DNA of 64,000 nt from Candidatus Wallbacteria bacterium (GTDB taxonomy: Bacteria > Muiribacteriota > JAQTZZ01): the NCBI GenBank assembly GCA_028687545.1, contig JAQTZZ010000015.1, forward strand, positions 1 through 64,000, written 5' to 3'. How positions within the stretch are numbered: position 1 is the first letter of the stretch; each line of letters starts with the position of its first letter. A program made the translations under genes and the position numbers. Under the pieces are notes generated by a model. The model was not told the origin of the DNA and made no database searches. It saw only the letters and a program-made list of their open reading frames with translations. Shown piece by piece: positions 2,363-44,931 of the stretch.

Positions 2363-5026
2363 TCACTTTTTCCTCTCTGCCTGCTTTAAAAGTTCGATGA
2401 TGGTCAGCAGATCATTCATCATATAGTCTGAAACCGCCTTTTTTTCAGCCATGGTCAGGGCTACATCCAGCGGGGTTTTTCCCTGCTTGTTTCTGATCAC
2501 CGGGTTGGCGTTTGCCTTGAGCAGCCTCTCCACTGAAGCCTTGATGCACCGGAGGACAGCGTGATGCAGGGCTGAGTCACCGTTTGAGTCCACTGCGTTG
2601 CAGTCTGCCCCGGCAGCGATGAGTTTATCCAGTTTATCTCCGAACATTGACGGTCCCATCAGAACTGTGCGCCCGGTTTTGTCAGTGGCATTCACCGGAA
2701 CTCCCTGTTTGAGGAAGTAATCGGTATACTCTTTCCTGCAGGTCATCAGCAGATTGCAGCCTTTCTTGTCGGTCAGGTCGGCCAGCTTGACACCTTTCCG
2801 GGTTACTGCGGAAACCAGCATTTCCACTGCTTCCTGATTGTTCTCCAGGTCAGCCGCATAAAAAAGCGGGGTCCTGCCCAGGCTGTCAGCGGCAAAAGGA
2901 TCTGCCCCGGCATCAAGCAGCATCCTGACTGGTTTAGGGTACGGCATCATCATCATCAGGGTCATGCCCATTGACTGGAGATCCGGCTTCCCGCCTTTTT
3001 TGAGAAAAATGTCGATCAGCTCGATTCCTTGGCTGATGGCTTCGTCGTGAGATTCCGGGTAAATAGGATTGGCGAGGAATCTGTAACAATCCTCATAAAT
3101 ATGCTTGAAGAAAGGATACCTATACATCCTCTCTTCCATCACCGGCTTGCTTCTTAAAGGGTACTCGGCCAGGATGTCTTCCCCTGATTTTACTGATTTC
3201 AGATATTCCTGAAGGTCTGAGCCGCGCTTCAGATCATTTTTCCGCTTGGCAGTCACTCCCTGATCAGAGAGAAATTTCTGGGACTCAATGCCCACATTTA
3301 CATCTGCGGCATTTTTCCCTTCCAGATTCACTGCTTTAGGGTCAGCACCATGGGCAATCAGAATTTTCAGAATATAAGGCTTTTTGCTCAATCCAAAAAT
3401 GGGAGTTTCGCCTTTCCTGTTCCTGGCGTTCACATCCGCTCCATTTCTGATCAGGAATTCGACGCTTTCAGTATCAAAACTGATTAAATGCAGCGGAGTG
3501 TCACCCGCCTCATTGGTATCATTTGCAGACAGCCCTCTGGACAGCAGCAGTTTCGCCACCTCAGGATCGAAATAGGAGCAGAAGAGCGGTGTATTGCCGG
3601 CCTTGTCCCGGATCTTCGGGTCAGCTCCCCGGTCGAGCAGCAGTTTCGCCACAGGCAGATTGTTCGGCATGCAGAAAATGGGAGTTCTGCCCGAGTTGTC
3701 GCGTTCATTGGGAGAAATCCCGTAATCGAGCAGCATCAAGGCAATTTCACTGGTGATTACTTCACAATGCAGCATTGTGTTGCCGAGAGGCCCCTTTTTT
3801 TTCAGATCCAGGCCGCTCGCGATCAGCAGGTCCGCAATCGCCCGATTCTTGACCCTGCTCAACAGGCAGTCCTTGGTGGCACCAGGGTTTTTCCTGTTGG
3901 AGAGCAGTATGTTCAGGTCAGCGCCATGGGCAAGCAGGGCTCTGGCGACTTCTGGTTCACTGGTGATTGTAAGCGGGACTTCAAAGCCTTCTTCCTGGTC
4001 AGGGTCAAGACCTTTCTCGATCAGGTATTCGGCTGCAGCATAAGTCGACACCGCCTCAATCGCAGCGAGCTTCCGATCCTTAGGCCCTTTCAGCAGCTCG
4101 ATTCTGAGTTTAGCCGCTGTTTCCTTTGTCTTCACTGCAGGCAGCAGTTCGACCTGCAGTTCCACAGTTCCTTTTGCCAGCATCAGATCCAATATTTCCT
4201 CATCCCTGGATCTTTGCACAAGTTCATAAAGAAGAGGATCTTTGGATTTTGTGAAAACATGTGCCTGGAATTCGGAACTGGAAAGCAGATATTTTACGGT
4301 GCGTGTCAGCTCCCTGGAGACTGCTCTGGAAAAAAGGTCTGGAAACAGCCTTCTGAACTCTTCCTGGCAGACCTTTTTCACAACCAGATCCATCAGCTCC
4401 GGGCTGTCCGCCTGCAGGGAAAGGCTCAGCAGCTTTTCAGGCAGCCCGCATTCGGCTGGAAGACTGATGACACCTGCAGCCGATTTCCGGGCCTGATCCA
4501 GATTAACGCTGCAGACAGCCCTGTAAAAACCGCATAGATCAGGACTTCCGCAAAGCAGTTTCAGGATGCCGAAATAATCGGAGGATGCAGCCAGGATCTG
4601 ATCGCCTTTTTTTGACAAGAAAACCGCAGCCTGCTGCAGATCGGAAATTTCGGCTGACGCATCCGGTCCCAGCAGCGGTTTCAGAAAGGTATCCTGAGAA
4701 TTTTCACCAGTCTCGACAGTATCTTTCACAAGCGCCAGAGCCCAGTCTGCGAGGAAAGTCATGGCCCAGGCCTCACCTTTCTCAACAACTTTATTATGCA
4801 CTGTCAGAAGCAGCGGCCAGTTGGAAAGATAGGCCCTGACTTTCAGGTCCTGATAGTCGGCCTGGAGCTTGGCTGCTTCAGCCGTCTGACCCTTTGCCGT
4901 CAATTCCTGCACCTTCTGCTCAGTGATTCTGTCCTTATCTTTGAAATCATAGAATTTCCATTTTTCCGGAGAGGCCTGGAGCTGGGAAAGTGCAAGGCAG
5001 AGAAACAGGCACAGGGTCCGACGCAT
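2363..5026 (-). CDS. Exported ankyrin-repeat protein, 887 aa
   Basis: A Sec signal peptide covers about the first 19 residues (MRRTLCLFLCLALSQLQA), so the mature protein is probably periplasmic or outside the cell. Two blocks of ankyrin repeats are visible, about residues 340-560 and 660-860, with typical units such as GNTPLF, LLLSRGL, NGADVNARN and GETPIF. The N-terminal third has no recognisable domain. Ankyrin repeats bind other proteins; no enzymatic motif is seen, so the partner is unknown. A GAGGTGAT ribosome site precedes the ATG. A promoter with the TGTAACTGG element lies 30-65 bp upstream. The gene is convergent with mutS and not obviously in an operon; the minus-strand gene upstream of it ends in its own terminator. 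Confidence 0.88.
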   Translation of the reverse strand: MRRTLCLFLCLALSQLQASPEKWKFYDFKDKDRITEQKVQELTAKGQTAEAAKLQADYQDLKVRAYLSNWPLLLTVHNKVVEKGEAWAMTFLADWALALVKDTVETGENSQDTFLKPLLGPDASAEISDLQQAAVFLSKKGDQILAASSDYFGILKLLCGSPDLCGFYRAVCSVNLDQARKSAAGVISLPAECGLPEKLLSLSLQADSPELMDLVVKKVCQEEFRRLFPDLFSRAVSRELTRTVKYLLSSSEFQAHVFTKSKDPLLYELVQRSRDEEILDLMLAKGTVELQVELLPAVKTKETAAKLRIELLKGPKDRKLAAIEAVSTYAAAEYLIEKGLDPDQEEGFEVPLTITSEPEVARALLAHGADLNILLSNRKNPGATKDCLLSRVKNRAIADLLIASGLDLKKKGPLGNTMLHCEVITSEIALMLLDYGISPNERDNSGRTPIFCMPNNLPVAKLLLDRGADPKIRDKAGNTPLFCSYFDPEVAKLLLSRGLSANDTNEAGDTPLHLISFDTESVEFLIRNGADVNARNRKGETPIFGLSKKPYILKILIAHGADPKAVNLEGKNAADVNVGIESQKFLSDQGVTAKRKNDLKRGSDLQEYLKSVKSGEDILAEYPLRSKPVMEERMYRYPFFKHIYEDCYRFLANPIYPESHDEAISQGIELIDIFLKKGGKPDLQSMGMTLMMMMPYPKPVRMLLDAGADPFAADSLGRTPLFYAADLENNQEAVEMLVSAVTRKGVKLADLTDKKGCNLLMTCRKEYTDYFLKQGVPVNATDKTGRTVLMGPSMFGDKLDKLIAAGADCNAVDSNGDSALHHAVLRCIKASVERLLKANANPVIRNKQGKTPLDVALTMAEKKAVSDYMMNDLLTIIELLKQAERKK

Positions 5027-5056: not shown

Positions 5057-5090
5057 ATTATAAGTAATATACGCTTTTCAGCCAGTTACA
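5057..5090 (-). promoter_or_regulatory. Promoter with TGTAACTGG element, ankyrin gene
   Basis: On the minus strand TGTAACTGG (5090-5082) lies 28 bp upstream of a perfect TATAAT (5062-5057). Transcription would start near 5050, leaving a 5' leader of about 24 nt with the ribosome site. No good TTGACA-type -35 box stands 17 bp from the -10, so the TGTAACTGG element occupies that place. The same element occurs before four other exported-protein genes in the window. Confidence 0.6.
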
Positions 5091-5140
5091 TTTCCCTGCG
5101 TCTGAAAGCCTTCATCTAAAGCTCCCGTTGTATTCCTGGA

Positions 5141-5207: not shown

Positions 5208-5852
5208 CTAAAAAGCTGGCATTTCAACTACTCCGCTCGTTTTCGTGATTTTGACTTCTTTGATTGATTCCTCGTCCAGCTTCCAGATCTGAATGGCTTC
5301 TTCCAGGGCTGATTTAAGCACTTTGTTCATGATGGCAGTCCGCGCCTCTTTCAGGGCTTCGGCTGAGCTGCGGAAATACCCGTTGACAAGGCTGCGGGTG
5401 ATGGATGCAGGGGTTCCTGCAGGAAGACTTTCCAGGGCAATGCTTTCGGGCTTGTCGAGCGTGATTTCAGCTCTGCCGCTGTAGTAAAGAACTCCACTCT
5501 TACTGGTGGAACAATTAACTGCCATGCAGATGGTTGTAGGTCTCAATGTTCTGATTATTTCCGGATATTGATTCAGACCCCAGGCTTTTACTGCAGTGAG
5601 CAAAGCCTGCTCTTCTGCAGCATCCTTGTTCTTCAGGGCCAGAGCCTGGGCCTCACCGGCGGTATTGAAAGAACCTTCCAGAATTTCATAGCAGATTGAA
5701 GTCTCTGAAGCGGCCAGTACCGGCGTAAGAGACAATGGCCTGGGCACAATGACTCTCGTCAGTGCGGCATACTGCCCTGCGGCCATGGCCAGGCTGGCAT
5801 TGAAAAACACAAGCCCAAGCACAAGAACTCCCAATCTGAATTTCCTTTCCAC
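5208..5852 (-). CDS. Exported protein of unknown function, 214 aa
   Basis: Translation probably starts at a GTG with a strong GAGGAGG ribosome site 6 bases upstream. A signal peptide covers about residues 1-25 (cleavage after a LAMAA-type site). The mature part is soluble-looking, with a Cys pair (TTICMAVNCSTSK) that could form a disulfide in the periplasm, and two amphipathic helical stretches in the second half (about 130-195). I do not recognise the family. The overall plan, a signal peptide followed by an alpha/beta domain of about 150 residues, resembles LPP20-like proteins, but no motif proves it. It has its own promoter and terminator, so it is monocistronic. Confidence 0.75.
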   Translation of the reverse strand: MERKFRLGVLVLGLVFFNASLAMAAGQYAALTRVIVPRPLSLTPVLAASETSICYEILEGSFNTAGEAQALALKNKDAAEEQALLTAVKAWGLNQYPEIIRTLRPTTICMAVNCSTSKSGVLYYSGRAEITLDKPESIALESLPAGTPASITRSLVNGYFRSSAEALKEARTAIMNKVLKSALEEAIQIWKLDEESIKEVKITKTSGVVEMPAF

Positions 5853-5912: not shown

Positions 5913-5947
5913 ATTATGAAAGCAATCTGCTTTTCAATCCAGTTACA
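5913..5947 (-). promoter_or_regulatory. Promoter with TGTAACTGG element, 214-aa gene
   Basis: On the minus strand TGTAACTGG (5947-5939) stands 29 bp before CATAAT (5918-5913). A GCAGC five bases upstream of the element is also found before the genes starting at 28056 and 29043. The leader to the GTG start is about 55 nt. Confidence 0.55.
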
Positions 5948-6000
5948 GTTAGCTGCATTGTGCAAAAAGAGGTAAACTCATTGGAAGAGATGAAATTTAA

Positions 6001-22093: not shown

Positions 22094-22140
22094 TGTAACA
22101 ACAATGTAACTGGAAATATTGTGTTTTCAGCGGATATTTA
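22094..22140 (+). promoter_or_regulatory. Promoter with paired TGTAAC elements, clostripain gene 2
   Basis: TGTAACA (22094-22100) and TGTAACTGG (22105-22113) form a direct repeat with 11-bp spacing, one helical turn. The second copy stands 30 bp before TATTTA (22135-22140), the likely -10 box. A leader of about 30 nt contains AGGAGGG before the GTG start. Confidence 0.55.
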
Positions 22141-22175: not shown

Positions 22176-23438
22176 GTGAGAATTTTGAGCATATATTTTT
22201 TCCTGTTTTGGGCGGGGATTGTTTTTTCGAGCGAAAAAGAGTGGACATTCATGGTTTTCCTGAATGGGGATAATAATCTGGAATCATTTGCGATCCAGGA
22301 TTTCAATGAAATGGAAAAAACAGGGTCAGGAGAAAATCTGAATCTTGTAGTTCAGTTTGACCGCTGTGAATGGTACGACGATTCAAACGGAAACTGGACA
22401 GACACCCGAAGGTATTATGTGGAAAAGGACAGCGATGAGAGTCTGATTTCATCTCCGGAACTGGAAAACCTGGGAGAAGTGGACATGGGGTCTTCTGAAG
22501 AACTGGTGAAATTTGTGGAATGGGCGAAAACAGAATATCCAGCCCGCCATTACTGTCTGGTGCTGTGGGATCATGGGGACGGCTGGAGAAATGAAGCTGA
22601 AAAAAGATATTCCTGTCTGCACAAGGGAATCTCAATTGACATCACCAGTTCATCCCGGATCGACACTCCGGCTCTGGGAGAGGCAGTGAAAAAGATCAGC
22701 GATGTTTTGGGGCAAAAGCTTGATCTGGTGGTTTTTGATGCCTGCCTGATGCAGATGATGGAAATTGCAGCCGAATTAGAGCGATCTGCGGCCATCATGA
22801 TCGGTTCAGAGCACACTGAACCCGGGGAAGGAATACCGTATGACCGGATTCTTCCCGCCTTTCTGGAAGGCAAGTCAGCCCGTGAATGTTCAGTTTCGAT
22901 AGTCAGGGAATACATCAATTTTTACAAAGAGCAGGCGCAGGAAAGTTATTCCGGCAACTGGTGGCTGGAAGCCACATATTCGGCGATTGATCTCGGTAAA
23001 TACAAAGGTCTGCGGGAAGCAACAGATAGACTGGCTCAAGTGCTCTCGGATAATCTGCCTGAAGTGAAAGCTGAGATTCTGAAAGTGCAGCAGAAGGTGC
23101 AGAGATACGACATGAACGATTACATTGATTTATATCATTTCGCTTATCTGCTAAACGGCATCGGGAATCAGAAAATCAGGGACGCCTGTTCCGGGGTAAT
23201 CGATTATTTCAAGGATTCCGGAATCGTGATTGCCAACGGGTACAATGAAACCCGGGTGAAAAATTCATATGGCATTGCCGTGTGGTTCCCTCTTTATACC
23301 AGGTATATCCCGAATTTTCCTGTTTCACTTCAGATCCCGTTCTCGGATGAATTTGCAGCCAGTTACGCAAGATTGAAGCTGGCGCAGGACGGCAGATGGG
23401 ATGAAATGCTTGCCGCATATCATAAAAAAGCGGAATAA
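22176..23438 (+). CDS. Exported clostripain-family (C11) protease 2, 420 aa
   Basis: The start is taken at the GTG with AGGAGGG 7 bases upstream, which gives a clean signal peptide (MRILSIYFFLFWAGIVFSS); the in-frame ATG at 22119 would add 19 residues with no ribosome site. The C11 domain begins KEWTFMVFLNGDNNLES. The catalytic His is in LVLWDHGDGW (residue 133) and the Cys in VVFDACLMQMMEI (residue 190). After the active site come helices and a region ending in SYGIAVWFPLYTRYIPNF, usual for the family. The gene is divergent from trpS and carries the TGTAACTGG-type promoter. Confidence 0.93.
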   Translation: MRILSIYFFLFWAGIVFSSEKEWTFMVFLNGDNNLESFAIQDFNEMEKTGSGENLNLVVQFDRCEWYDDSNGNWTDTRRYYVEKDSDESLISSPELENLGEVDMGSSEELVKFVEWAKTEYPARHYCLVLWDHGDGWRNEAEKRYSCLHKGISIDITSSSRIDTPALGEAVKKISDVLGQKLDLVVFDACLMQMMEIAAELERSAAIMIGSEHTEPGEGIPYDRILPAFLEGKSARECSVSIVREYINFYKEQAQESYSGNWWLEATYSAIDLGKYKGLREATDRLAQVLSDNLPEVKAEILKVQQKVQRYDMNDYIDLYHFAYLLNGIGNQKIRDACSGVIDYFKDSGIVIANGYNETRVKNSYGIAVWFPLYTRYIPNFPVSLQIPFSDEFAASYARLKLAQDGRWDEMLAAYHKKAE

Positions 23439-26853: not shown

Positions 26854-28056
26854 TTATTTATAATACTCTTGCAGCAGCCTGTCCCAGCCTGAAGTTTTCG
26901 AAAAGGGAAGATCCTCATAAGATTTCAAGTATCTGTTTCCGGTTTCCGGGAAGTAGATCGACATCCCGGTAGCATCCTCGTTTTCATCGCCAACGTGGCC
27001 ACCGTAGATTACAGCTTTGCCGTAATCAAAACGCGCGGCCTGGATCTTTTCCACAAGCACATCGTCTGAATTGCATCTTTTCTCAAGCAGCTGCAGGAAA
27101 AAACCAAGATCTATATAATCAGATTCAGAGAACCAGAGTGAATCATGCCTGGCTCCTGCAAGGGCAGTTTTAAATTTCCCCATGTTTCCAGTAAGTTCCA
27201 GGGCCAGATCCGCAATGGACGATTCCACGGCCCTGATCCGGCTTTCGTCGATCGCGGATTTGGTAACATCGTACCATTTGGCTGGATAGAAGGAGCAATA
27301 TTTTTCTGCGAACAACAATGCCAGGTCGCGACCTCCGGCTTCCGGAGTGAGTGAGGAAAAAATTGAGCAGAGCGGGTCGCCGTCGTCCGGTTCGATCTCC
27401 TCGGAATATGCCAGATAATCTACGCTGTCCTTGAACTGATAAGCCACTTCCAGCATTCCCATCAGGCAGGCGTCGAAATCCAGCACATCGATTTTTTTAC
27501 CTAGGCTGTCAGTAATCTCTGAAAATGCAGATTTCAGTTCTGCAAGAGTCAAAGTATCGCGGTCAGTGTCGTCGCTGCAGACATCGCGCGATTTCGGCGG
27601 ATAAACATATGGCTTCCAGCCGTGGCCGTGGCCCCAGATGATCAGGCAGTATTTCTCTGCCGGGAACATGGCTGCATATTTTTTTACGAAGCCGGTGAGC
27701 GTAGCCGGATCTCCCATGTCCGGTTCTGCAATATCTTCCAGTACGGGTGAAATCACTGTGCCATCGTCCCCGACCTGTGTGGTGTCAGTATCTTTAATCA
27801 CATGAAAGACTTTGCCGCCTGTCCAGTCGCCGTTGCTTGTGTTTTCCCCTGGAATGCGGTCCACGAGAGCCACCATGTCCATCCAGTCGTTTGATCCGAC
27901 TTTCTCCAGCTGGTTCAGGCCGCGGAATGTTGCTCCTTCCAGGTTGCAGTCTCCGTTCATATAGACGAACACTGTCCAGGCCCTGCCCTCTGCAGACAGC
28001 TGTCCGGCCAACCGTAAAATGATCATGAAAATGATGATACTTCTCAGTTTAAGCAT
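26854..28056 (-). CDS. Exported clostripain-family (C11) protease 3, 400 aa
   Basis: A signal peptide (about 1-22, ending QLSAEG) precedes a C11 domain starting at RAWTVFVYMNGDCNLEG. The catalytic His is in LIIWGHGHGW and the Cys in DVLDFDACLMGMLEVAYQF. It is closer to protease 2 than to protease 1 in length and in the region after the Cys (YSEEIEPDDGD against GSEHTEPGEG). A GGGAGGGAATC ribosome site precedes the ATG. The gene is framed by two copies of the 171-bp element and preceded by a copy of the 74-bp hairpin repeat with the TGTAACTTG promoter element. Confidence 0.93.
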   Translation of the reverse strand: MLKLRSIIIFMIILRLAGQLSAEGRAWTVFVYMNGDCNLEGATFRGLNQLEKVGSNDWMDMVALVDRIPGENTSNGDWTGGKVFHVIKDTDTTQVGDDGTVISPVLEDIAEPDMGDPATLTGFVKKYAAMFPAEKYCLIIWGHGHGWKPYVYPPKSRDVCSDDTDRDTLTLAELKSAFSEITDSLGKKIDVLDFDACLMGMLEVAYQFKDSVDYLAYSEEIEPDDGDPLCSIFSSLTPEAGGRDLALLFAEKYCSFYPAKWYDVTKSAIDESRIRAVESSIADLALELTGNMGKFKTALAGARHDSLWFSESDYIDLGFFLQLLEKRCNSDDVLVEKIQAARFDYGKAVIYGGHVGDENEDATGMSIYFPETGNRYLKSYEDLPFSKTSGWDRLLQEYYK

Positions 28057-28083: not shown

Positions 28084-28117
28084 ATTATGTCCGGAATCAG
28101 CGCCTGTTCAAGTTACA
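28084..28117 (-). promoter_or_regulatory. Promoter with TGTAACTTG element, clostripain gene 3
   Basis: On the minus strand TGTAACTTG (28117-28109) is 28 bp before CATAAT (28089-28084). The element coincides with the gene-proximal end of the 74-bp repeat 28111-28184. The leader is about 20 nt. Confidence 0.55.
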
Positions 28118-28184
28118 ATCTGCTGCGGCTCTTACGAACTTGTTCGTTAGAGCCGCACATCCACACTGCAAGTGTGGGAGCTGC
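28111..28184. repeat. 74-bp double-hairpin repeat, copy 1
   Basis: By direct reading it is identical at 70 of 74 positions to 29101-29174. It starts AGTTACAAT and contains two stem-loops: TGCGGCTCTTACGAAC / GTTCGTTAGAGCCGCA (15 of 16 pairs) and CCACACT / AGTGTGG. Each copy ends the same distance, about 55-57 bp, upstream of a minus-strand exported-protein gene. Confidence 0.8.
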
Positions 28185-28425: not shown

Positions 28426-29043
28426 TTATACTCCTGACAGCCAGTCTTCTTCAACCGGACCGTTGTGCTGATGATAATAACCATGCTGGTCGTAGTAACC
28501 ATAATTGGTGTAATAGTGATATACGCCGTCCTGGCTGTAATACCCGGATTCGTAATATGAACTGGAGGGATGATAATTCGGGTAGTTTGGATTGTAAGGA
28601 TAGTATGGGTGGAAGACACCATACTGATCGTAGTACCCACCCGGGTAATGTGGACCGTTTGGCCCGTTGAATACAGGCTCTGACTTGTAGCGGATCAGGC
28701 AGCAGTTGATCTGGGCTGCATCCGCTGCGACCGCGATCTTGATCTGCGAGATCTTCTTGTTCACCTGGATGGTGAACATCTGGTTGTCCCCGACCTCCAT
28801 TGTCTTGTAAAGCTGGTTGTCGAAGTAAATCCCTGCCTGGGCAGTGCCGCCCGCATCGGTCCAGCTGATCCAGAGCGACTGTATTTCCCGGTTTGAATCA
28901 GCCTTCTCGATAAAAGTCTGACCTGGTTCGTACCAGTTGAACTGTGTTCCGTTCGCAGTGCTTCCAGTTGTCACGCCGGCGGACCAGACTGCGGTACTGC
29001 AGAGCAGTGCCAGCATTGAACAAATGATGATTCCTTTTTTCAA
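28426..29043 (-). CDS. Exported Tyr/Gly/Pro-rich protein, 205 aa
   Basis: The start is taken at TTG 29043 with AAGGAGGAGAAC just upstream, which gives a clean signal peptide (KKGIIICSMLALLCSTAVWSA); an ATG six codons earlier has no ribosome site. Residues 25-135 form a beta-rich domain (WISWTDAGGTAQAGIYFDNQ). The C-terminal 65 residues are dominated by Tyr, Gly, Pro, His, Ser and Asn, with three related units: YYDQYGVFH, YYSQDGVYH and YYDQHGYYH. Such low-complexity Tyr-rich tails occur in surface, matrix or cross-linked proteins. No family is recognised. Its promoter carries the TGTAACTGG element. Confidence 0.8.
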   Translation of the reverse strand: MKKGIIICSMLALLCSTAVWSAGVTTGSTANGTQFNWYEPGQTFIEKADSNREIQSLWISWTDAGGTAQAGIYFDNQLYKTMEVGDNQMFTIQVNKKISQIKIAVAADAAQINCCLIRYKSEPVFNGPNGPHYPGGYYDQYGVFHPYYPYNPNYPNYHPSSSYYESGYYSQDGVYHYYTNYGYYDQHGYYHQHNGPVEEDWLSGV

Positions 29044-29072
29044 GTTCTCCTCCTTGAGCATTTAATGATTGA

Positions 29073-29107
29073 ATCGTACCTGCTGAACTGGAGGAGAGCC
29101 AGTTACA
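29073..29107 (-). promoter_or_regulatory. Promoter with TGTAACTGG element, Tyr-rich protein
   Basis: On the minus strand TGTAACTGG (29107-29099) lies 29 bp before TACGAT (29078-29073), a weaker -10 match. The element is the gene-proximal end of the 74-bp repeat copy 2, so this case is not independent of the one at 28084-28117. Confidence 0.45.
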
Positions 29108-29174
29108 ATTTGCTGCGGCTCTTACGAACTTGTCCGTTAGAGCCGCACATCCACACTGCAGGTGTGGGTGCTGC
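29101..29174. repeat. 74-bp double-hairpin repeat, copy 2
   Basis: It has the same length and structure as 28111-28184 with four substitutions, two of which lie in the hairpin loops or flanks. It occupies the spacer between the Tyr-rich protein gene and the 45-aa small gene. Confidence 0.8.
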
Positions 29175-41171: not shown

Positions 41172-42041
41172 ATGAAAAAAATTGACCTGAGGCGCAATTT
41201 TCTGAGTTTTGCAGCGATCATGATCGGAGCCGCGATCTCGGCACTTGGCCTGGTTTTCTTCCTGATCCCCTGCAAGATAGTGGCCGGGGGAGTCTCAGGC
41301 ATAGCTACAGTCATCTATTACATGTCAGGCAGGCATTTCCCGGTGGGCGTTTCCATGATCTTCATGAACGTCTTCCTGATCCTGCTGCAGGCGAAGCTGA
41401 TCGGCGGCAAATCCTCTATGAAGACTGTGTTCGTGATCCTGTTACAGCCCGTTTTCATCGATGTGATGATGAAGATCACAGAAAACAAGGGGTTGACCGC
41501 TGACCCGATGCTGGCCTGCCTGTTCGGAGGCGTGCTCTGCGGGATCGGGATCGGAATTGTCTTCAAGTTCGGCGGGACTACAGGCGGCACAGATATCGTA
41601 GCCCAGATAATCTCAAAATACATGCGCTTTTCTGTGGGTGTTTCCCTGACCATGACGGATTTCACAATTTCGCTGATCTCAGGAGCGATCCTTGGCAAGA
41701 TCGAACTTTCCCTATACGGCATCATAACCATTTTCTTCACTTCCAAGATCATCGACGCTGTGCAGCATGGATTTTCATATTCCAAAGTGGTGTTCGTGAT
41801 TTCCGAACAGTATATGTTCATCGCCGAAGAAGTGATGGGCGAACTGGGACGCGGAGTTACCCTGATCGATGCCACAGGCATGTTCACTGACCGGCCCCAC
41901 AAGATGCTGATGATCGTGGTCAACCGGCGGCAGCTGTATGATGTGAAGGAATTCGTGCGGGACATTGATCCGCACGCCTTCATGATCGTCTGCGACGCCC
42001 ATGAAGTGCTGGGCCTGGGATTCCAGAAGATCGAAGAGTAA
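41172..42041 (+). CDS. YitT-family membrane protein (DUF161/DUF2179), 289 aa
   Basis: Five or six membrane segments fill the first 200 residues with the family markers ALGLVFFLIPCKIVAGGVSG and FKFGGTTGGTDIVAQIISKY. A C-terminal cytoplasmic DUF2179 domain follows (about 205-289; EVMGELGRGVTLIDATGMFT, MIVVNRRQLYDVKEFV, DPHAFMIVCDAHEVLGLGF). The DUF2179 part is thought to bind a small ligand. Members are widespread and usually annotated as putative transporters without proven substrate. It is probably leaderless. Confidence 0.92.
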   Translation: MKKIDLRRNFLSFAAIMIGAAISALGLVFFLIPCKIVAGGVSGIATVIYYMSGRHFPVGVSMIFMNVFLILLQAKLIGGKSSMKTVFVILLQPVFIDVMMKITENKGLTADPMLACLFGGVLCGIGIGIVFKFGGTTGGTDIVAQIISKYMRFSVGVSLTMTDFTISLISGAILGKIELSLYGIITIFFTSKIIDAVQHGFSYSKVVFVISEQYMFIAEEVMGELGRGVTLIDATGMFTDRPHKMLMIVVNRRQLYDVKEFVRDIDPHAFMIVCDAHEVLGLGFQKIEE

Positions 42042-42068: not shown

Positions 42069-42125
42069 TGTTACAGATTGTTACAATCTGAAGAGCGGAA
42101 AACCGGTCTGTTACAAATTGTTACA
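42069..42125 (+). promoter_or_regulatory. Four helically phased TGTTACA half-sites
   Basis: TGTTACA occurs at 42069, 42079, 42109 and 42119, i.e. two pairs with 10-bp spacing and 40 bp between pairs. The enclosing 23-bp blocks (TTGTTACAGATTGTTACAATC and CTGTTACAAATTGTTACAATC, read in part) are direct repeats. All sites face one side of the helix. They end 50 bp upstream of the -35 box of the STAND/winged-helix regulator gene. OmpR/PhoB-type winged helices usually bind tandem heptamers at 10-11-bp spacing, so self-regulation is plausible. Confidence 0.6.
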
Positions 42126-42174
42126 ATCAGTTAAACTTTTCCGCCTTTATTTCCAAGGTCTCCGGTTAGGTCGT

Positions 42175-42203
42175 TTTACAAACAGCTGAAAAAACGATAA
42201 AAT
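42175..42203 (+). promoter_or_regulatory. Promoter of the STAND regulator gene (leaderless)
   Basis: TTTACA (42175-42180), 17 bp, TAAAAT (42198-42203). The ATG at 42211 lies 7 bp after the -10 box. There is no room for a ribosome site, so the mRNA should begin at or beside the start codon. Confidence 0.6.
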
Positions 42204-42210
42204 TACTGCC

Positions 42211-44931
42211 ATGCCATACATACCGCCTCCGCCAGGAGAATTCTATGGGAGGCAGCGGGAAATTGCCCGTTTGCTCTCTTTTTTCCCTACCCAGAAGGTG
42301 ATGATCATAGCAGGGCTGGCCGGGATCGGCAAAACTGCGCTTGCCCTGACCTTTGCAGACTCGGTTTCCAGGATGCCCGAATACCAGGACAAGGTGATGT
42401 GGGTCACCTGCCAGCACGGCTGGAATTCGGAGGACCTGTTTGCCCAGATCATCAAGCAGCTGGCGACTTTTGCCGGAAAAATCAAGGAAATTTCGGATAC
42501 GCTTGAAGGTTCGCCTGAAGGCGTGATCAGGCTGATCGAGAAGAACTGCCTGGCGGTTTTCATCGACGATTTCCACCTGGTGGAAAACGAAACTTCCAGG
42601 AGTTTCATCCGCCTGGCCAAGGAATTCCTTTCCAAAGGTAAACTGGTGGTCACAACCAGAAAACGGGTGGCCCTGTCTCCGCTGGACAGAGTGGACCTGT
42701 TTGAACGGCGCCTGGACGGCCTGGCTCTGGAAGACTGCCGCAAGCTGATCGAAAAGCTCCTCAAATTCCATGGTTTCGAAGATCTGACTGAAGAGAAATT
42801 CTCGAAGATCTATTACAAAGTCAAAGGTCACCCTTTTTCCATCAAACTATTTATCAGCCTGATGGTCTCAGGCGGATTCTCCCTGGATTCCCTGCTGGAC
42901 ACTTCATCAGAATTCGAGGAGGAGATGGAGCGCTTCCTGCTCGACAAGGTCTGGGAAATTCTGGAAAAGAGCGAACAGGAAGTTTTGAAGTCCCTGTCCA
43001 TCATCCGGATCCCGATCAAGGCTGAGGAGTATCCCCTGCTTGCCACCCCGATCCTGAAAAAAGCCCTGCGCCAGCTGATCGATAATTATCTGATCGAATA
43101 CAATAAGGAAGGCCGGATTTTCATCCATGACCTTCTGAAGGACTATGCCAGCCATAAGCTGGACGATAAATTCCTGAAAAAACTGCATCTGCAGGCTGCC
43201 GAGTATTTCCACCAGAAAACACCTCCTGAGATTGCAGAGCTCAAGGAAGCGTACTACCATTACCACGAAGCCGGCAAAGTGAGGGAAGCAGTCCAGGTCA
43301 TCATCAAGATCAACGAGCATTTCATCCTGCAGGGTGAAGAGACCGAACACTTCTATCACCTGGTCAACGATGCGATCGCGAACTGTGCCGACAATTTCCG
43401 GGAAGACCTGATCAAGATCAAGATCTGGCTGCTGATATACTGGAATAAGTTCAAGGAGGCCGAGGAACTCGCCGGGGAAGTCAAGAATCCCCAGGACAAG
43501 ATCTTCATCGGTGCCAAGATCAGCCTCCAGAAAGGCCAGTATCACGAAGCATTGAAGGGCTTCACTGAAGCGCAGGATAATCCCAACGGTGATGCTCAGC
43601 AGCTGGAAATCCTCAACGGCATGGCTATCTGTAATTATTATCTGGGCGACTGGAAAAAAGCCGAACAATATTATCTTTCCTCACTGGAACTGCTGAAAAA
43701 GCATGAACGGCCTCTGATGAAAGGCAGGGTACTCTCCAATTTCGCAGTGATGCTGTCTACCACAGGAGATTTATACAGAGCCATCGAATATTATCAGGAA
43801 GCGGAAAAACTCTATCGCCAGACCAACAATCTCAGCCTGCTTTCCAATGTGATCTATAACAAGGCCATGACCTATATCAATATGCAGGAACTGGATCGGG
43901 CGCGGGAAGCGCTTAAAGAATCCATGGAAATCAAGGAAAAGATCGTTGACAACCAGGGAATGATCTACCATCTGAATCTGCTGGGAGGGATCTCTTTCCT
44001 GGAAGGCGAATACGAGGCTTCCCTCCAGCATAACAGGCAGGCTTTGAAACTGGCCGAGAAATGCGGTGAAATCAAGCTCAAGACCGTGATTTATTGCGAC
44101 TTCGGCCGGGCTCTGACCAGAATGGGCAAGCTGGAAGAGGCTGAAGCAAATTTTCACACCGCCTTTGAAATCAGCACTAAAGCGGACAGCCGGCTGTACG
44201 AAGCCATGCTTAAACAGGAATATGCCCAGTACCTGCTGGTCAAAGGAGAGCGTGAGCCTGCCCTTAAGTATCTGGAAGAAGTTCGGGAATTCGCTCTGGC
44301 TGCGACCCATAAGGAGCTTCTGGTCAAATCGCTTTATTTCCTGTACCGGACAGGAGAACTTCTGCAGGATAAACATGCCTGCGACTACTCGGCGGAATAT
44401 CAGAAAAAAATCGCTGAAGTGCCGAATCCCCTTAAAGAACGGGTGGCGCAGCTTTTCAAATGGTATGAGGACTACGTTTTTACCACTGAAGAAAAAGGAT
44501 TCTTCCTGATTACTCCCAAGGGTAAGAAATCCGCAGACACCCGGGATCTCGGCAATACCAGAGCTGAGAGGGATAAATTCGAGATTTTCATAGATTTCAT
44601 CGAGCATGAGCTGCTGATCAGAGGCAAGAAGGTGAAATTCTTCAAGAAGCGCACCCTGGTACCCCTTTTATATGTCCTGGCCGCCGAGCCGGGCAAGATC
44701 TTCGATTTCGCTACTCTCTTCGAAGCTGTCTGGGGCAGAAAATACGATGTGGAGAGCGACGGAGTGACTCTGAGGGTGAACATTTCACGGCTGCGCTCAA
44801 TCATGGGAGAAAAAAAGGGTAAGGAAATCTTTGTCCGCTCGTCTCCGGATGTAGGGGGATATCATTTCAACAGCCAGACCGATTACTGCATCATTATTCC
44901 CAGCAGGAGCGAACGGGAATTCATGGAATAG
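42211..44931 (+). CDS. STAND ATPase - TPR - winged-helix transcription regulator, 906 aa
   Basis: Residues 10-330 form a STAND/NB-ARC ATPase: Walker A GLAGIGKTAL at 35-44, Walker B CLAVFIDDF near 114, sensor LVVTTRKR near 148. About 370-770 hold at least eight tetratricopeptide repeats (e.g. AICNYYLGDWKKAEQYYLSS). Residues 790-890 form an OmpR/PhoB-type winged helix (ELLIRGKKVKFFKKRTLVPL, LRVNISRLRSIMG, GGYHFN). This is the domain set of MalT/SARP-related regulators, with the DNA-binding part at the C-terminus. ATP and a ligand sensed through the TPRs would drive oligomerisation. Target genes are unknown; phased repeats upstream suggest self-control. Confidence 0.9.
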   Translation: MPYIPPPPGEFYGRQREIARLLSFFPTQKVMIIAGLAGIGKTALALTFADSVSRMPEYQDKVMWVTCQHGWNSEDLFAQIIKQLATFAGKIKEISDTLEGSPEGVIRLIEKNCLAVFIDDFHLVENETSRSFIRLAKEFLSKGKLVVTTRKRVALSPLDRVDLFERRLDGLALEDCRKLIEKLLKFHGFEDLTEEKFSKIYYKVKGHPFSIKLFISLMVSGGFSLDSLLDTSSEFEEEMERFLLDKVWEILEKSEQEVLKSLSIIRIPIKAEEYPLLATPILKKALRQLIDNYLIEYNKEGRIFIHDLLKDYASHKLDDKFLKKLHLQAAEYFHQKTPPEIAELKEAYYHYHEAGKVREAVQVIIKINEHFILQGEETEHFYHLVNDAIANCADNFREDLIKIKIWLLIYWNKFKEAEELAGEVKNPQDKIFIGAKISLQKGQYHEALKGFTEAQDNPNGDAQQLEILNGMAICNYYLGDWKKAEQYYLSSLELLKKHERPLMKGRVLSNFAVMLSTTGDLYRAIEYYQEAEKLYRQTNNLSLLSNVIYNKAMTYINMQELDRAREALKESMEIKEKIVDNQGMIYHLNLLGGISFLEGEYEASLQHNRQALKLAEKCGEIKLKTVIYCDFGRALTRMGKLEEAEANFHTAFEISTKADSRLYEAMLKQEYAQYLLVKGEREPALKYLEEVREFALAATHKELLVKSLYFLYRTGELLQDKHACDYSAEYQKKIAEVPNPLKERVAQLFKWYEDYVFTTEEKGFFLITPKGKKSADTRDLGNTRAERDKFEIFIDFIEHELLIRGKKVKFFKKRTLVPLLYVLAAEPGKIFDFATLFEAVWGRKYDVESDGVTLRVNISRLRSIMGEKKGKEIFVRSSPDVGGYHFNSQTDYCIIIPSRSEREFME

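Follow-up and report, generated by a model that had tools for sequence, protein, structure and literature searches.

The 64,000-nt stretch of the uncultured Candidatus Wallbacteria bacterium analyzed here (the window; assembly GCA_028687545.1, contig JAQTZZ010000015.1, positions 1 to 64,000) carries an array of four TGTTACA sites upstream of a gene for a 906-aa STAND regulator with TPR repeats and a C-terminal winged helix. The array appears to be one copy of an operator that is used at dozens of promoters, mostly those of secreted-protein genes, and the best candidate for its reader, and for that of the related class A operators described below, is the adjacent regulator, an assignment that we make with moderate confidence. 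At the level of sequence, the case is built on the array itself, the operator found genome-wide, its fixed distance to a -10 element, the exported nature of the targets, and the way in which operator and recognition helix go together in three genomes.

The exact TGTTACA sites lie on the plus strand at 42069-42075, 42079-42085, 42109-42115, and 42119-42125, i.e., at steps of 10, 30, and 10 bp, as a first-pass annotation of this DNA had reported. Each pair is one copy of a 20-bp direct repeat; the two copies agree at 95% of positions and have a spacing of 40 bp. The same annotation had placed all four sites on one face of the helix, which holds well within each pair, whereas over 40-50 bp a strict 10-bp period slips by 70-90 degrees at 10.5 bp per turn. 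TGTTACA occurs 12 times in the window compared with 3.8 expected, a count reached in 0 of 100 shuffles, and the paired pattern TGTTACANNNTGTTACA has only three copies in the 4.54-Mb genome, two of which make up the array, while the third lies ahead of an exported-protein gene on contig C4. TGTTACA differs from its own reverse complement at the center base only, and CAGATTGTTACAATCTG (17 bp, 42074-42090) is a perfect palindrome around the central base of a TGTTACA site. Because of this near-symmetry, the array was oriented by the TGTAAC consensus of the sites across the genome; on the minus strand, all four of its half-sites fit this consensus. The elements of the locus are as follows:

42069..42085, minus strand: operator pair 1 with class A half-sites that have no TGG tail, TGTTACAGATTGTTACA (minus strand TGTAACAATCTGTAACA)
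42109..42125, minus strand: operator pair 2, TGTTACAAATTGTTACA (minus strand TGTAACAATTTGTAACA)
42175..42203, plus strand: predicted regulator promoter TTTACA-17-TAAAAT, its -10 ending 7 nt before the ATG
42211..44931, plus strand: 906-aa STAND (NB-ARC)-TPR-C-terminal winged-helix regulator, proposed reader of the class A operators

A two-mismatch search starting from the array returned a coherent polar set of sites, TGTAACAAATTGTAACTGG, often with a third repeat upstream, and this operator, class A, has the form TGTAAC-N4-TGTAACT(G/T)G. Exact TGTAACN4TGTAACTNG is present 11 times in this genome (G000), 13 times in G001 of the same family, and once in G002. A sister, class B, has the form YGCAG-N5-TGTAACTGG, in which the proximal TGTAACTGG is kept and YGCAG replaces the distal TGTAAC; G000 has about 28 such sites, and the single class B near-match in G001 has neither a -10 in place nor an exported target. 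A looser pattern covering both classes gave 48 matches against 7 control matches in G000 and 23 against 3 in G001. The array core is shared with the TGTAACTGG elements of the window, as had been claimed, but most of these elements, including those at 5939, 5082, 29099, and 28109 (some of the TTG type), belong to class B, which may be read by another paralogue than class A. The proposed PhoB-type geometry was borne out as well, the sites being 10-bp direct repeats of the OmpR/PhoB winged-helix type, and the site at 22094, before a clostripain-family gene, is a class A operator with 11-bp spacing. A scan of viral contigs for the operator yielded 45 matches in 2.9 million contigs, which was taken as chance level.

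The placement of these sites relative to promoters is largely constant. When the best TATAAT-like hexamer was sought downstream of each 19-mer site, this -10 began 19-20 nt past the 19-mer in 49 of 62 cases, compared with 3.1% of random positions. With the -10 counted as -12 to -7, the two TGTAAC copies cover about -50 to -45 (distal) and about -40 to -35 (proximal), the layout of an activator just upstream of the -35, which would abut or replace the -35 contact. TGTAAC as the -35 of an extracytoplasmic function sigma factor was rejected on account of the conserved TATAAT-like -10 at 22-23 nt from TGTAAC. The suggestion that exported-protein genes are the targets agrees with the signal-peptide-like starts, judged by a simple hydrophobicity rule, of 45 of the 47 downstream open reading frames (ORFs) with a ribosome-binding site, compared with 16 of 35 control ORFs. 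By Pfam, the class A targets are C11 (clostripain), M4 (thermolysin-type), and C1 (papain-type) peptidases, an alpha-amylase, an Amidase_2 protein, and a CBM48 protein. The operators and targets in the window are:

22094..22113, plus strand: class A operator TGTAACAACAATGTAACTGG, 11-bp spacing, 62 nt before a clostripain-family gene
22176..23438, plus strand: exported clostripain-family (Peptidase_C11) protein, target of the 22094 site
28109..28127, minus strand: class B operator CGCAGCAGATTGTAACTTG
26854..28056, minus strand: exported clostripain-family protein, target of the 28109 site
29099..29117, minus strand: class B operator CGCAGCAAATTGTAACTGG
28426..29061, minus strand: exported 205-211-aa protein with no Pfam match, target of the 29099 site (a TTG start preceded by a Shine-Dalgarno sequence gives 205 aa)
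5082..5100, minus strand: class B operator CGCAGGGAAATGTAACTGG
2363..5026, minus strand: exported ankyrin-repeat protein, target of the 5082 site
5939..5957, minus strand: class B operator TGCAGCTAACTGTAACTGG
5208..5852, minus strand: exported 214-aa protein with no Pfam match, target of the 5939 site

Several class B targets (L163, L164, L044, L031) carry an N-terminal signature after the signal peptide, e.g., SVVNVxVWxKxxPxxxTxYTYLQG, and targets of this kind are apparently a lineage-specific exported family.

Five class A operators have no ORF directly downstream but a putative small RNA (sRNA) of 70-130 nt. Its 5' stem shows compensatory changes in four of the five loci (GUAGAG/CUCUAC, GAAGAG/CUCUUC, GAAAGAG/CUCUUUC), and it also has an invariant ACCUGUAGUCCACUUAUACUCU and a GC hairpin with a U-run; a search of Rfam gave no match. 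Pairing of the putative sRNA with mRNA leaders was considered and rejected, as its complement had an 8-mer in common with 8 of 122 exported genes, which is within the range of shuffled seeds (mean 3.7, maximum 13). The putative loci are:

G000: L066:1553-1676 (C25), L073:1563-1690 (C38), L077:1553-1676 (C69)
G001: L089:1563-1680 (C125), L159:1550-1625 (C414)

The regulator itself has NB-ARC, TPR, and Trans_reg_C, all above the Pfam cut-offs. NB-ARC (PF00931) scored 46.4 bits (cut-off 23.5) and has the P-loop GLAGIGKT, and Trans_reg_C (PF00486) scored 36.5 bits (cut-off 26.2) at residues 818-881 of 906. The best PDB sequence matches are PH0952 for the NOD (E 1.6e-15) and the RstA DNA-binding domain for the winged helix (E 0.0018). 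RNPP_C stayed under its cut-off (24.2 bits, cut-off 26.5), and a fold search with the TPR part, which alone is confident in the model of the full regulator, matched Rap and NprR among many TPR folds. An AlphaFold model of the winged helix from two sequences was poor (pLDDT 42.6) and was not used. The Pfam search found no receiver domain, no BTA domain, and no LuxR helix-turn-helix at the C-terminus, which is Trans_reg_C. The predicted -10 is so close to the ATG that the regulator mRNA is probably leaderless. In a scan of GTDB species genomes, the sole relative of the regulator found was in a Candidatus Wallbacteria assembly.

Regulator and operator also go together in their distribution. Across 37 genomes of the phylum, the exact class A operator with a -10 was found only in G000 (8), G001 (4), and G002 (1), with 0 control matches. 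These are the only three genomes in which the RVN...SRLR recognition helix was found; this helix among the aligned paralogues is confined to the window protein, its G001 orthologue, and the single G002 member:

44758..44799, plus strand: recognition-helix region DGVTLRVNISRLRS, identical to the G001 orthologue except for one I/V change

The G002 site has the same anatomy and precedes an exported-protein gene, and no exact class A operator with a -10 was found in G010 and G025, which carry other family members. The window protein and its G001 orthologue are 56% identical and form the shortest-branched between-genome pair in the tree (0.34 + 0.39, support 100/99). The co-occurrence is supportive, though short of proof because G000, G001, and G002 are relatives. 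In G025, a denser TGTAACAAAG array lies near a contig end (C171:16265-16293; L088/L090), with more TGTAAC/TGTTACA copies nearby and a layout that differs from that of class A promoters.

G000 encodes about 29 STAND-TPR-winged-helix paralogues, and repeats of the same anatomy, but with other half-sites, occur next to several of their genes. TGAAAC repeats lie beside paralogue C81 and beside its G001 orthologue C178, other own-gene repeats are TATTCAC at C96, TGTTAC at G001 C493, and TRCAAC at C46, and TGAAGC/TGAAAC repeats are located after C98. Divergent operators, with repeat, tail, and -10 scored jointly, were detected in 4 of 40 paralogue upstream regions compared with 0.03 in shuffles. The residue aligned with the V of RVN is V for TGTAAC, K for TATTCAC, T for TGTTAC, and M, in two distant branches, for TGAAAC. 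This hints that the helix residue may track the operator type, but the numbers are small, and M is also present in paralogues that have no known operator. Operators within 150 bp of STAND genes amount to 7 of 54 compared with 0.11 if they were uniform, a contrast that overstates the proximity, since operators are intergenic and it was beside STAND genes that classes C and E were found; classes A and B alone lie near STAND genes at C15, C29, and C37. A -10-like hexamer stands 4-10 nt before the start codon in 26 of 34 STAND paralogue genes (7 of 45 control ORFs) and a Shine-Dalgarno sequence in 3 of 34 (13 of 45), which suggests leaderless mRNAs across the whole regulator family. In G000, a STAND paralogue is followed by an OmpR-type response regulator and this, directly, by a clostripain-family gene (C31:24807-26947; L185:1908-4048). 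It is conceivable, though somewhat short of probable, that about 29 one-protein activators, each with its own variant of a common 10-bp-repeat operator at its gene, divide the control of the secretome of this uncultured phylum, their helices and operators having co-diverged, and that one branch drives a new sRNA.

Several points weigh against the assignment of the operator to the window regulator. The window array has no TGG tail and no -10 at 19-20 nt on its consensus strand, and being so different, it may function otherwise than the rest. The upstream region of the G001 orthologue is missing, as its contig ends inside the gene, and the YitT gene was not found in G001, thus synteny offers no substitute. 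No array was found beside the gene of the G002 relative, which is more distant and has the same recognition-helix core. The co-occurrence spans three genomes that lie near one another in the tree, class B is attributable to no single paralogue, and G000 and G001 also have in common an OmpR-type response regulator (62% identity) together with its kinase.

The last point could mean that an ordinary OmpR/PhoB-type response regulator, e.g., C24 with its G001 orthologue C305, reads the array and class A, the STAND regulator being merely a target. Four such proteins are present in G000 and one in G001, a histidine kinase adjoins both C24 and C305, which are the 62% identical pair, and response regulators such as RstA use tandem direct repeats. 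We nevertheless consider this unlikely, as no class A, B, or C site was found near response-regulator genes, while variant repeats of the same anatomy adjoin STAND paralogues, the TGAAAC type beside orthologous ones in two genomes, and in three genomes the TGTAAC operator goes with the RVN helix of STAND proteins. Less probable again is that another STAND paralogue reads the array and that the window regulator is a layer in a cascade without self-regulation. There are about 29 paralogues to choose from, the proximal TGTAACTGG is common to classes A and B, and a class B site lies upstream of C37, with three class A sites no farther than 4 kb from it; however, class A is kept in G001, where C37 has no clear orthologue but the window regulator has one. 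The perfect inverted repeat CAGATTGTTACAATCTG, with one central base, could make the 17-bp palindrome the true site of an unrelated dimeric repressor, which is very improbable: the symmetry is only partly kept in the second array copy, the TGTWACA core is near-palindromic by itself, and the sites across the genome are polar, stand at a fixed distance from the -10, and often have a third repeat upstream. We give hardly any credence to the view that the segment is mainly a terminator (GCGGAAAA...TTTTCCGC) of the upstream YitT gene with incidental repeats, since its perfect 8-bp arms (42095-42102 and 42137-42144; RNA folding z -2.2) are separated by a 34-nt gap, the T tract is poor, the terminator scan did not pick it up, and identical repeats elsewhere would be left unexplained.

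41172..42041, plus strand: YitT/DUF2179 membrane protein gene, upstream of the array and in the same direction as the regulator

If the adjacent STAND regulator is the reader, the array would be a tandem operator of the PhoB/RstA kind made of 10-bp direct repeats, with one winged-helix domain per half-site. The TPR sensor would meet an inducer, upon which the regulator would become an ATP-bound multimer and occupy TGTAAC-N4-TGTAACTGG, whose proximal half-site covers about -40 to -35. It would then recruit RNA polymerase to promoters with a -10 but a poor -35. Binding, activation, multimerisation, inducer, and autoregulation are inferred in this scheme. The regulon would comprise secreted hydrolases, other exported proteins, and an sRNA. 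At the regulator's own gene, the half-sites face away from the gene, 50-106 bp ahead of its -35; the array is thus reversed and, at 50 bp upstream of that -35, out of activating position, and no divergent target gene was found beside it at the locus. Four distant, reversed half-sites could set up autoregulation at a distance, the simplest reading of the array because own-gene regions of several paralogues also carry repeats, and sequence alone cannot separate activation from repression there. If true, this would provide a regulatory code for Wallbacteria, of which we found no earlier description; judged by title and abstract, none of the papers surveyed that mention Wallbacteria appears to treat its gene regulation. 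A readable promoter element would predict the membership of a secreted degradative programme, and the natural set of paralogous activators with differing operators would make the rules of winged-helix DNA recognition and STAND activation testable within one family.

MalT and other transcriptional STAND proteins use multiple repeated DNA sites. MalT ends in a LuxR-type helix-turn-helix (PMC4381067, PMC6468293), whereas the window regulator has an OmpR-type winged helix and its predicted regulon targets are secreted proteins. In AfsR/SARP of Streptomyces, a winged helix is likewise joined to a STAND NOD and TPR, and a direct-repeat operator likewise covers the -35 region, in promoters whose -35 is poor (PMC10936776). 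The winged helix of AfsR is, however, N-terminal and accompanied by BTA, in contrast to the C-terminal one of the window regulator, which has no BTA match. The afs box has 22 bp (two 11-bp repeats) at -40 to -19, centered at -29.5 (PMC10936776), while class A has a 10-bp period, a center near -42 as estimated from the -10, and a pair that ends 22-23 nt before the -10. PimR, a SARP-LAL regulator, resembles the present system in the two or three heptameric direct repeats, bound cooperatively by PimR, and differs in the 4-nt spacers (11-bp period) of its main operator and in its N-terminal SARP domain (PMC5930380). Among known DNA sites, the RstA box TACA-N6-TACA (PMC4117788) comes closest, and it is found exactly inside each window pair. 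Head-to-tail binding to tandem repeats, as in RstA, PhoB, and OmpR (PMC4117788), is predicted for the regulator too, but it has no receiver, and STAND and TPR would serve as switch and sensor in place of a phosphorelay. The predicted regulator thus resembles AfsR, MalT, and RstA in different respects and is a member of none of these groups.
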